Source: Gymnopus androsaceus JB14
Taxonomy: Eukaryota > Basidiomycota > Agaricomycetes > Agaricales > Omphalotaceae
Assembly: GCA_009733575.1 (NCBI GenBank)
Contig: ML769478.1
Coordinates: forward strand, 142,503 to 206,502
Length of the DNA: 64,000 nucleotides
Direction of reading: 5' to 3'
Within the stretch, counting starts at the first letter, position 1; each line of letters opens with the position of its first letter. The translations under genes and the position numbers were made by a program. Below are positions 12,290 through 16,377 of this stretch, in pieces. The notes below the pieces were generated by a model, which saw nothing but the letters and a program-made list of their open reading frames with translations, ran no database searches and was not told where the DNA came from.

Positions 12290-14006
12290 CTATGTTAATT
12301 CATATTGTGCAGCCAAATCATCAATGAGATCCTCCGTTCTAAGGGTGTCGAACTCAAAGCCTGTGGACAGTGAATCATCTTCCAGCCGAAAAGTAGGCAC
12401 CGTTGAAAAGATGCCTGCCTGCGCGCTACTGTGGAGATTCAAAAAAATACGGCTTAACATGCTAACCGAAATTGCAGACTAGTTTTCAGGTAAGATGTAA
12501 GCCACTAAAAGATAGAATTGCCACTTACGGCGAATGTTGATAGCCCTCCTCGAAGAAACGGCTGCAACATCCGAGTCCAGATAAATTGGTACTTACTTAG
12601 CTCAGATAGGATTATCACTTACGCCAGTAAGCTACGAGAGGACTCAGTTAACGTTCCTGTGATTGTGTCGCCGAGTATGAAGAGATACATACGTAAAATG
12701 TCATGATGTTTGCCAAGTTTGCGAGAGCCATGACACTATCTCCGGTATTGTGAGAACATACTTGGGATCGTCTCAAAAAGGCTTACGCAAAGTAGATCGC
12801 ACCTATATTGGAACGCCGATTTACATTAGCAGAAATGATAGAATAGGGGGACACGTACCATCCCGGAGCATCAAGGAAACAAGAGGAATTCTAAGGCGCC
12901 CCATCCCTGTAATACTGCGTCGCGATTTATGAGTCTGATATAGCGTAAGGCCGAAAAGGATAGAGTCGTAGCAGAAAAGGGCCTCCCACGCGGTGGCTAA
13001 ATCTACACATGAAGTTCAGACTTGCGGCTTTAGACTTTTTTAAAAGGGTCGGCAGCACCACTCACGTATTGAACTTTAAATGGAACAGGGATATTCAGCT
13101 AATGTAGCATGTGAAGGAAACTGCCCCTACCTAATTAACTCGAGAGCTATATGGCACCCGGAGGTGGCGGCAGTACTGCTTTTTTGTCCGAACAGAGACC
13201 ACTATAACGTGAATAATGTGAATGAAAGAAATGGACCAGCAAGGCATAAACGCACCACTGCTACTCCAGCAAGGATTGCACCGCTCCCGAGCATGTAGCT
13301 TAGAATTCTAACACTGCGACCGTACAAAGCATAAATTCGCATTGTCAAAAGAACTGCGAGAAAGAATCAATATAGCGGACCACCCGGACGAAACTATAAG
13401 AATTACCGCATACAATGACCTGCTGAATGACAAGCGCCAGTTGGCGATACAAGCTGTATTTCTCGCAGCTAAATACGAAATGAGTATGATCGAGCTATAA
13501 TACTTAGCCCAAGGTACTAACTAACCTCTGAAATTATAACGCTCCATCTAAATTCAATGGGGTGATATAATAGGGGCATAGCACTTACTGATGTAGACAA
13601 ATTCACGTATTCGAGAATTGTTGCGGTGATATTTGAGAAAAAGGCAAAATATCGATTCAAGAAGAACCAGTAGGAGCTCCATGTCATCGGGCTTCGCCAG
13701 AGATAGTGTATTTCGTATTCTACAATGTCATATTGAATCAGAACCTGTCACAAGCTTTAACCTTGACATTGTGTCTAAAAGTACTCACTTAGCGTCAAGA
13801 GGTGATCCCAATACAAGATTGCTGTAGAAATGATCAATAATGTTCGGCGAAATAAACGACAAGCCTCACAGATGGCTAGCATTTCGAAATAACTTTGCAG
13901 CAATCTTAATGAAAAAGATTATTTGGGTTAGTCTTGTTTAAGTTAATTGCCAGAGTACCCACATTTGATATGCTGTAGAACTGGGGTCTTCAGCGTCGTT
14001 ACTCAT
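12290..14006 (-). CDS. DUF6533-type seven-transmembrane protein, copy A (micro-exon rich)
   Basis: I could thread a continuous protein of about 330 residues from the ATG at 14006 to the TAG at 12290. It begins 'MSNDAEDPSSTAYQ' and contains 'SYFEMLAI', 'ILYWDHLLTL', 'YEIHYLW', 'FFLNRYFAFFSNIT', 'YSLYRQLALVIQQVIVC', 'LLTMRIYALYGRSVRILSY', 'WSLFGQ', 'HLATAWEALFCYDSILFG', 'LMLRDGAIYFAVMALANL', 'PFLRGGLSTFA' and 'SVSMLSRIFLNLH'. This is the order and wording of the DUF6533 family of basidiomycete membrane proteins (function unknown, likely plasma membrane, about seven helices). About 15 exons are needed, including ones of 16 nt (12787-12802), 9 nt (12623-12631), 8 nt (13066-13073) and apparently 2 nt (13526-13527); all keep GT and AG borders. 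The frame is open throughout. It lies 160 bp from the transposon block and is duplicated in tandem by the next gene. No transcript evidence is available to me. Confidence 0.8.
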
Positions 14007-14674
14007 GTGAGGGTGATGAAGGAAAGAGACAAAGAACAAAGAAGCGAAAGAACGAAAGAACGTTATAAGACGTAGTGCGATCGTCCCTGTGGCAATCAGC
14101 GCTCCTGAGCGCCGTCAATCTGGGTCCACTTCTGGCCTGGCATGCCTTTGAATTGTGGATGTTCAAATTGATAACATGCGTCACGCTGTATTTAGGTTTG
14201 GTTCCTTATGTGAACGTTTTTCTTGTACCATTACCTTATTCGGATGACCCGCGGCCTTATTTGGAACCTAACCTTAGCCATGCTGCATTTAGTATATCTT
14301 TATTTTATCTTTGCCGTTCAGCAAGCTGCAAAGCTTCATCTACTCAGTTCTACTTCTACCCCCACCTCGATAGTGCTTCTATATCAAATGTTCAATGTCT
14401 GAGACTCATCCACGCTTAATTCTGCTGGTCTTACTAGTAACTACTAGTACTTGCACCATGTCGAAGTGATGCTGAACATCCATTTCGTGTTAGTGTCGCA
14501 ATCCTTCAAATTTAAACCCCCCAGATTCTGAGAGGATTTATTCTGCTATCCGCCACCAGTTACCATTATCCGTGCAAATATGGTTGGTAGAAGTCGTCGT
14601 ATTAACTGCATTGTAGTGATATTGGTTCGAACATATAAATAACTCGTGAACCGGCTAACCCAACTCAAAAACCT
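14007..14674. other. Upstream region of copy A, part of the tandem duplication unit
   Basis: The 200 bp upstream of copy A ('gaacgaaagaacgttataag', 'tgtggcaatcagcgctc', 'ttcaaattgataacatgcg') closely match the region upstream of copy B at about 16400-16600, so the duplicated unit includes the promoter. No separate gene is seen; the plus-strand frame at 14075-14419 is not supported. Confidence 0.6.
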
Positions 14675-16377
14675 CTATGTTAACGTGTATCGTGTAGTCA
14701 AGCCATGAGTGAGATCCTCCGTTCTCAGGGTATCTAACTCAACCCCTGTGGACCATGATTCTTCTTCCAGTCGAAAAGTAGGCACCACCGAAAAGATGCC
14801 TCTCTGCGCAGCTACTATGGAGGTTTAAAAAAATACGGCTCATCATAATAACCGAAAATGCAGACTAGATTTCTGGTAAGGTTTAAGTTGGTAATAGATA
14901 GAATCACCACTTACAGCGAACGTTGATAGCCCTCCTCGAAGAAATGGCTGTAACATCCGGATCCAGATAAGTTTACCTGCTTAGCTCAGATAGGATTTTT
15001 ACTTACTCCAGCAAGCTACGAGAGGACTCAGTTAGTGTTCCAAAGCTTGCTTTGTAGAGTATGAAGGGATACATACATAGAATGTCATGATATTTGCCAA
15101 GTTTGCGAGAGCCATGACACTATCCGGGTATTGTGAGAACATACTTGGGATCGTCTCAAAAAGGCTTACGCAAAATAGATCGCACCTATATGAACTTATA
15201 TTAGCAGAAATGATAGAATAGGGAGCCACGTACCATCCCGAAGCATCAAGGAAATAAGAGGAATTCTAAGGGGCCCCATCCCTGGAATACTGCGTCGCGA
15301 TTTATGAGTCTGATACAGCGTCAGGCCGAAAAGGATAGAGTCGTAGCAGAAAAGGGCCTCCCACGCCGTAGCCAAATCTACATATGAAGTTCAGACTTGT
15401 GGCATTAGATTTTTAATAGGGTTAGCAGCACCACTCACGTATTGAACTTTAAACGGAATGGGGATATTCAGCTAACGCAGCATGTGAAGGGAACTGCCCC
15501 TACCTAGTGAACTCGAGAGCTATATGGCACCCGGAGGTGGCAGTACTGCTTTTTTGTCCGAACAGAGACCACTATCATGTGAACGATGTGAATGAAGAAA
15601 TGGACCAGCAAGGCATAGACGCACCACTGCCACTCCGGCGAGGATTGCACCGCTCCCGAGCATGTAGCTTAGAATTCTAACACTGCGACCGTACAAAGCA
15701 TGAATTCGCATCGTCAAAAGAACTGCCGAAAGAATCAATACAGCGGCCAACCTGAACGAAACTATCAGAATTACCGCATACAATGACCTGCTGGATGACA
15801 AGCGTTATTTGGCGATACAGGCCGTATTTCTTGCAACTAAATACGACATGGTTATTATCGAGCTATAAGATATAATAGCCCCCGAGGTGCTAACGAACCT
15901 CTGAAATTATCAACGCTCCATCTAAATTCAATGGGGTCATGTAATAGGGCATAGCACTTACTGATGTAGACAAATTCACGTATCCGAGAATTGTTACGGT
16001 GATATTTGAGAAAAAGGCAAAATATCGATTCAAGAAGAACCAGTAGGAACTCCATGACATCGGCCTTTGCCAGAGATACTGGATTTCGTATTCTACAATG
16101 CCATATCAAATCAGAACCTGTCACAAGCTTCAACCTTGATATTGTGTCTAAAAGGACCCACTTAGCGTCAAGAGGTGATCCCAATACAAGATCGCTGTAA
16201 CAACGATAAATAATGCCCAGTGATTTCAAACGACAAGCCTCACTGATGGCTAGCATTTCGAAATAACTATGCAGCAATCTTAATGAAAAAGATTAATTCG
16301 GTTAGTCTTTAAGTTAATCGCCAGAATACCCACAATTGATATGCTATAGAATTGGGATCTTCTGCATCATTGCTCAT
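14675..16377 (-). pseudogene. DUF6533-type seven-transmembrane protein, copy B (C-terminal frameshift)
   Basis: Tandem duplicate of the gene at 12290-14006 with roughly 85-90 percent nucleotide identity by eye. The same exon chain can be followed from 'MSNDAEDPNSIAYQ' (ATG at 16377) through 'ILYWDHLLTL', 'YEIQYLWQRP', 'FFLNRYFAFFSNIT', 'YGLYRQITLVIQQ', 'MRIHALYGRSVRILSY', 'TAWEALFCYD', 'VMALANLANIMTFY' and 'PFLRGGLSTFA'. All micro-exons are conserved: 2 nt at 15899-15900, 8 nt at 15439-15446, 16 nt at 15170-15185 and 9 nt at 15007-15015. In the last exon one extra base, relative to copy A, in 'agtagctgcgcag' (near 14810) shifts the frame and stops the protein about 25 codons later, so the acidic C-terminal tail is lost. 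The helices are intact, so a shortened protein might still be made. The extra base could also be an assembly error. Confidence 0.75.

Follow-up and report, generated by a model that had tools for sequence, protein, structure and literature searches.

Tandem DUF6533 genes of Gymnopus androsaceus JB14 very probably contain a 2-nucleotide coding exon

Genes at the locus and their protein family

The stretch of DNA analysed here, referred to as the window, comprises 64,000 nucleotides (nt) of the basidiomycete Gymnopus androsaceus JB14 and corresponds to C96:142503-206502 of an 83.3-Mb genome. Two tandem gene copies, A and B, lie on its minus strand and encode proteins of the DUF6533 family, and in both of them a coding exon of two nucleotides is very probably real. 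A third copy, C, is situated just left of the window (C96:138267-140651). The deposited model for gene A is P0001 (BT96DRAFT_858890), with a length of 306 amino acids (aa). The reading frame of gene B stops early in the last exon, which differs in length by 1 nt from those of A and C near position 14810, shifting the C-terminal tail; the open reading frame (ORF) P0015, near-identical to B, carries the family tail.

The product of gene A, P0001, matches DUF6533 (PF20151) with 38.1 bits against a Pfam cut-off of 24.1, and P0123 and P0003 also exceed this cut-off. The AlphaFold model of the relative P0003 predicts seven long helices with a mean predicted local distance difference test (pLDDT) score of 81.9, and A and B are predicted to be membrane proteins with seven helices. 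Cys86 and Cys153 (P0003 numbering) are invariant in 36 hand-picked sequences, and the codon containing the 2-nt exon precedes Cys86. In the P0003 model, Cys86 is placed at the start of helix 3 and Cys153 in a hairpin before helix 5. In class A-like G-protein-coupled receptors (GPCRs), a disulfide joins the start of helix 3 to the second extracellular loop, and the modelled positions of the two cysteines suggest a possible disulfide of this receptor type. The 50 structural matches listed, out of 806, look by title like GPCRs or GPCR-domain proteins but are weak (best E 0.0045, none at or below 0.001, template modelling scores by query length below 0.5).

Exon-intron structure and profile-guided alignment

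Exon 5 of both genes consists of the dinucleotide AG, and the serine codon that it builds in A immediately precedes the conserved cysteine. The flanking introns are of ordinary length in both genes (Table 1), and loss of the two nucleotides would shift the frame at this site. The initial annotation had placed micro-exons of 16, 9, 8 and 2 nt in both genes; all eight positions were found to be correct, each lying between AG and GT, and the indel differences that it described in the surrounding introns were recovered for the introns around the 2-nt exon when A was compared with B. By-eye threading of A and B and profile-guided spliced alignment both bore out its claim that the genes need all four micro-exons. 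A 23-nt version of exon 2, obtained by threading, was dropped because the profile alignment and deposited models put the acceptor of intron 1 at ..CATTAAG.

Table 1. Positions in the window of genes A and B, of their short exons and of the introns flanking the 2-nt exon
Feature	Position	Strand	Length	Description
Gene A	12290..14006	-		15 exons, 14 introns; DUF6533 protein, 305 aa
A exon 2	13870..13904	-	35 nt	Acceptor CATTAAG; QILLQSYFEM as in P0001
A intron 4	13528..13588	-	61 nt	GTAAGT..TTTCAG, phase 0
A exon 5	13526..13527	-	2 nt	AG; entered in phase 0 and left in phase 2; the following base completes Ser (AGC); very probably real
A intron 5	13469..13525	-	57 nt	GTTAGT..ATTTAG, phase 2
A exon 9	13066..13073	-	8 nt	Phase 2 to 1; threading and profile alignment
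A exon 11	12787..12802	-	16 nt	Phase 1 to 2; threading and profile alignment
A exon 13	12623..12631	-	9 nt	Phase 0 to 0; threading and profile alignment
Gene B	14739..16377	-		15-exon structure as in gene A; 283 aa
B exon 2	16244..16278	-	35 nt	QLLLHSYFEM as in deposited model P0004
B intron 4	15901..15961	-	61 nt	GTAAGT..TTTCAG, phase 0
B exon 5	15899..15900	-	2 nt	AG; gives Ser (AGT); very probably real
B intron 5	15837..15898	-	62 nt	GTTCGT..ATTTAG, phase 2
B exon 9	15439..15446	-	8 nt	Read through by near-identical spliced ORF P0015
B exon 11	15170..15185	-	16 nt	Read through in P0015
B exon 13	15007..15015	-	9 nt	Read through in P0015

Splice-aware alignment of DUF6533 homologues, one of the checks named by the initial annotation, was performed with a custom aligner that matches a protein profile to DNA and permits GT/GC-AG introns, scored by simple weights for donors and acceptors and by tiers of intron length. 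General values, left unfitted, served as weights, and the profile was built from 21 proteins on short contigs, 45-61% identical to A. In all three copies the parse chosen by the aligner contained the exons of 2, 8, 16 and 9 nt. Barring the acceptor of the 2-nt exon cost 22.3, 25.6 and 24.0 bits in A, B and C, respectively, and 0.3-18 bits in the other 22 loci with a 2-nt exon.

Enumeration of in-frame parses of gene A gave 17 with a single GT/GC-AG intron, none of which yields LSTS plus one residue before the cysteine, and 93 with two introns of at least 35 nt, of which one gives LSTSSCEKY and none gives VSCEKY. A 130-nt intron (GTCTAC..TTTAG) was rejected; it keeps the cysteine and one residue before it but loses four loop residues. 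A single canonical intron of 94 nt ending in TATAG, which would add eight residues (LDHTHFVF) before the cysteine, is in frame with GT-AG ends in A, B and C are likewise free of stops over the matching stretch, and some genome models of other fungi carry insertions at the site, which are taken for annotation trouble. Transcript-like ORFs lack such an insertion, however, the spliced contig of the paralogous locus L047 has exactly one residue at the site, and the profile alignment favours the 2-nt exon by more than 22 bits, leaving this parse a very slim chance.

Recurrence of the micro-exons among paralogs

The aligner was run on 56 loci: besides the three copies, these were 53 stretches surrounding matches to DUF6533 or to the protein of gene A. 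Excluded were L004 (near-identical to L005), L089 (the same place as L023) and L052 (which covers L083 and L084), and C582:984-1115 was left out of the 49 matching places in the genome. Short automatic loci were covered through larger stretches of the same places, except L023 and L037, which were run themselves.

Across the G. androsaceus genome, a 2-nt exon was parsed at the site in 23 of the 26 loci scoring above 60. These loci contain 326 internal exons, 25 of them 2 nt long, and 23 of those 25 fall at this one site, which begins in phase 0 at profile column 80 (column 78 for L060 and L064) and ends in phase 2 one column later. For these two loci the aligner chose GTTTTG as the first-intron donor, which probably lies 15 nt upstream of the correct one, where a GTAAGC stands. 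L045 (AG) and L057 (GG) show the 2-nt exon by eye although the aligner parsed them otherwise, L078 reads straight through the codon with no intron at the site, and the exon is also present in L071 and L075, whose alignment scores are negative. The dinucleotide varies among loci (AG, GG, AC, AT, GT, CT), as expected of coding sequence. The other micro-exons recur as well: the 8-nt exon in 21 of the 56 loci, the 16-nt exon in 24, and the 9-nt exon in 25 at the same columns and in 4 more one column off.

In a rough, midpoint-rooted tree of 48 loci, read without its support values, most loci that have a 2-nt exon share a single large group with the three copies, while L086 and L071/L075 sit in an adjacent group among loci with one or no intron. 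The members of the pairs L004/L005, L060/L064 and L057/L065 are near-identical or close to each other and lie on separate contigs; they perhaps represent alleles that were not collapsed, or recent segmental copies. With L060/L064 and L057/L065 among the loci counted, not every locus is independent. Separately, in the distant paralogs L002, L054, L058, L062 and L070 the aligner places another 2-nt exon (columns 158-163, phase 2 to 1) instead of the 8-nt exon, as if two codons shorter, in low-scoring alignments.

The contribution of chance was gauged on the interval between exons 4 and 6 of 25 loci, using 2,000 dinucleotide-preserving shuffles per locus. Any fitting 2-nt exon was offered by 4-29% of shuffles per locus (mean 14%), and the p-values for a shuffled exon at least as good as the real one ranged from 0.0005 to 0.0185 across the 25 loci. 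The combined value of 8e-42 is no true probability, because the loci are related and were chosen for having the exon; a fairer comparison sets about 14% expected against 25 of 26 observed, 23 by the aligner and 2 by eye.

Spliced contigs

The ORF P0123, 245 aa long and located on a contig of 1,158 nt, shares 98-99% identity with the protein predicted from splicing of the paralog L047. At the site it reads LTES-S-CKPF, with the predicted residue. The genomic distance from the ATG of L047 to its last donor is 1,465 nt, longer than the contig, which is thus spliced. The parses searched for L047 and L046 had a single intron or a pair of introns enclosing an exon of at most 12 nt, and the sole GT/GC-AG route found to the L047 peptide takes a 55-nt intron, AG and a 51-nt intron. 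The sole canonical route found in L046 likewise uses the 2-nt exon; its deposited model P0121 has the same wording at the site and agrees with the L046 prediction across the aligned stretch. At the protein level, P0123 supports inclusion of the 2-nt exon in the mature mRNA of L047. As a separate observation, the ORF of P0123 ends where the first bases of the last L047 intron give TAA, as if that intron were retained in the spliced contig, and intron retention may therefore occur in the family.

For the larger micro-exons, P0015 (906-nt contig) agrees with B in 137 of the 138 residues that precede the tail, and it spans the 8-, 16- and 9-nt exons. The B genomic stretch matching it measures 989 nt, longer than the contig, and P0015 supports inclusion of these three exons in the mature mRNA of B. 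Decay of the gene copies, with the micro-exons as a forced fit, would draw on the shifted frame of the B tail and on a transposon-like insertion in intron 8 of C. Gene A has an uninterrupted frame up to its end, all three copies preserve the splice sites, the structure recurs in paralogs and P0015, from a contig shorter than the gene stretch, reads the 8-, 16- and 9-nt exons, so that decay deserves next to no credence.

Deposited models and evidence against the 2-nt exon

Several observations weigh against a 2-nt exon in A and B. No transcript of A or B spanning it was found. P0001, the deposited model of A, reads LSTS-V-SCEKY with one extra residue, and this V also appears in the Lentinula detonsa model P0008. 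P0004, deposited for B, skips the site, and P0172, which corresponds to L064, shows Arg (AG plus A) instead of the Gly that a GG exon predicts. The profile margin for the exon is just 0.3 bits in L047, 1.2 in L086 and 1.8 in L064, and first-intron acceptors are weak at some loci, such as ATGGAG in L050. In A, neither intron 4 nor intron 5 has the branch-point motif YTRAY, and in B and C intron 5 lacks it as well. The genome models P0177, P0178, P0179 and P0183 are without the cysteine, which is thus not universal; this and the missing branch motif slightly lower trust in the structure. Finally, one longer intron with non-canonical ends would give an identical peptide in the AG-type loci L047, L046 and A.

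In that last alternative, splicing would end two bases early, the terminal AG of intron 5 would stay as coding sequence and no 2-nt exon would exist. L047 would lose a single 106-nt intron with the ends GT..GC or GG..CG, the ends in L046 would also be GT..GC, and in A the intron would end in TTT before the AG; P0001 and P0172 do imply non-canonical ends at the site. Such splicing would be needed in about 25 genes, each of which nevertheless holds a canonical pair of introns of ordinary lengths. It also permits only Ser or Arg, whereas transcript-like ORFs of other fungi, read at the protein level, have Gly, Ala, Trp, Met, Ile, Thr, Leu and Val too; P0221, about 43% identical to L068, has Ile, as the AT exon of L068 predicts. 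The explanation as a whole is unlikely, and a single non-canonical intron, the outcome that the initial annotation had named as refuting its proposal, is disfavoured for A and B themselves, with non-canonical splicing of A itself regarded as possible. Among the 120 of 145 matches listed for L063 (GG), a locus with a dinucleotide other than AG, no near-identical transcript was present; its listed relatives at 61-69% identity are P0176 (Gly) and P0173 (Arg).

The deposited model of A may also be taken at face value, with five extra bases (GTAAG) retained to give Ser-Val-Ser-Cys. P0001 and P0008 share this V, yet Ser-Val-Ser-Cys is obtained solely from single excisions with non-canonical ends, and V or breaks at the site are commoner in genome models than in transcript-like ORFs; retention is accordingly quite improbable. 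The residue-plus-Cys pattern is missing from 71 of the 233 genome models covering the site and from 0 of 37 transcript-like ORFs, with the provisos that 20 of the 37 also built the profile and that some of the 71 may truly lack the cysteine. Val stands at the site in 32 of the 233 genome models (3 with a nearby insertion) against 1 of the 37 transcript-like ORFs; P0015, P0170, P0271 and P0280 were excluded from these counts. P0016 (Gly) and P0036 (Val) are 93% identical. The short-contig ORFs other than P0123 and P0015 are taken as transcripts from their unbroken reading. The extra Val or Arg in deposited models may reflect aligners forcing two unplaceable bases onto the genome, a reading with which the pattern counts are in line. 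Two other measures of annotation trouble were set aside: the indel rate along the profile spoke against it, the loop immediately upstream varying in length and transcript-like ORFs outside the profile having at least as many indels there (up to 0.71, compared with 0.35 in genome models), and a stricter pattern count (6 of 26 transcript-like ORFs irregular) was too strict and was replaced by the residue-plus-Cys count.

Single-intron relatives and history of the arrangement

Each of the two introns also occurs alone in distant paralogs. The phase-2 intron stands alone in L002, L054, L066 and L070, with the two bases fused to the upstream exon, and the phase-0 intron stands alone in L079, with the two bases fused to the downstream exon; L081 would be similar to L079 but with a GC donor. 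The alignments of these loci are low-scoring, and the codons are readable in the sequence. The two introns are therefore separate, and the 2-nt exon is what remains between them when both are present. That each position also occurs alone points to an ancient gain or loss of one intron next to the other.

Since about 25 paralogs, distant ones among them, have this exon in identical phases, the arrangement predates A, B and C. The proposal of the initial annotation that introns were gained inside former exons of this gene pair consequently lacks support. The 2-nt exon is probably an old, working feature of the gene family, and its conservation beyond this genome would follow from the residues read in proteins of other fungi.

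Proposed splicing

In all likelihood, two GT-AG introns flank a 2-nt coding exon in A and B, which would be spliced as L047 appears to be, with the introns removed one after the other. The introns would lie two nucleotides apart, the first, of phase 0, following codon 80 in the family profile and the second, of phase 2, interrupting codon 81. The exon would supply the first two bases of the codon before the conserved cysteine at the start of helix 3, with the frame kept. Recognition of both introns is expected to proceed by intron definition and their removal stepwise, since the acceptor of the first intron and the donor of the second are too close for simultaneous binding; a stepwise route is in line with the argument made for a 1-nt exon of Arabidopsis in the part of that report consulted (PMC4674806).

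A broader account is favoured with modest confidence. Dozens of genes in each genome, throughout Agaricomycetes, would have kept the exon from a time preceding the radiation of what is a large family of receptor-like membrane proteins in mushroom-forming fungi. Its two flanking introns would of necessity be removed stepwise, and annotation would systematically misread it as an extra Val or Arg or a lost Cys.

A repeated element in gene C

Intron 8 of copy C, left of the window, contains a 679-nt element (L043:1542-2220; G000:C96:139041-139719) with inverted ends of about 148 nt at 93%. It enlarges the intron from 57 to 732 nt and leaves the splice sites intact. Matching pieces number 120 in the genome, the element itself included, which suggests a multi-copy DNA transposon or a miniature inverted-repeat transposable element (MITE).

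Significance and comparison with known systems

If the broader account given above holds, the exon would be the smallest known in fungi and its occurrences the largest known set of exons below 3 nt, with the single-intron relatives and several natural dinucleotides as built-in controls. The structure bears on the minimum size of an exon, to which the answer in the literature searched consists of a few 1-nt exons of plants. A natural series within one genome makes the order of splicing, the spacing of splice sites and the role of the dinucleotide testable by RNA-seq, and public gene models of the family may be wrong just before the conserved cysteine. That the DUF6533 family can matter is illustrated by SNB1, a DUF6533 protein of Agaricomycetes with seven predicted helices, its gene family being required for fruiting-body patterning in a mushroom according to the part of the report consulted (PMC10949477).

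The initial annotation had regarded a 2-nt exon as extreme for any eukaryote, a view that is not supported in light of the constitutive 1-nt exons documented in the plant genes APC11 and VPS55, as described in the consulted portions of two reports (PMC4674806, PMC8831610). The literature searched contained no report of a 2-nt exon that was pertinent by title. A 2024 abstract states that functional microexons had not previously been described in filamentous fungi, and the exon proposed here would be smaller than any nuclear fungal exon met in the literature searched, where the smallest measures 6 bp.

The closest parallel is offered by the plant APC11 and VPS55 exons, which, as far as the consulted portions of the reports extend, are likewise too small for exon definition, lie between two introns and are missed by annotation; they too are long conserved (PMC8831610), and certain relatives carry the base as part of a larger exon. 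The plant cases involve 1 nt in two genes, whereas the fungal exon has 2 nt and occurs in about 25 paralogs of one family, with dinucleotides that differ among the paralogs and introns of about 50-80 nt. The P450 genes of Phanerochaete chrysosporium resemble the present case as a basidiomycete multigene family with many small exons, and introns of 45-55 bp are frequent among them; the shortest exon reported in the portion consulted is 6 bp, compared with 2 nt here (PMC1184071). Spliceosomal twin introns (stwintrons) are similar in being adjacent fungal introns that need consecutive splicing. In the descriptions consulted, however, the internal intron of a stwintron splits a splice element of the external one, whereas both introns of A and B are complete with their own GT and AG, and the frame needs the two coding bases between them.

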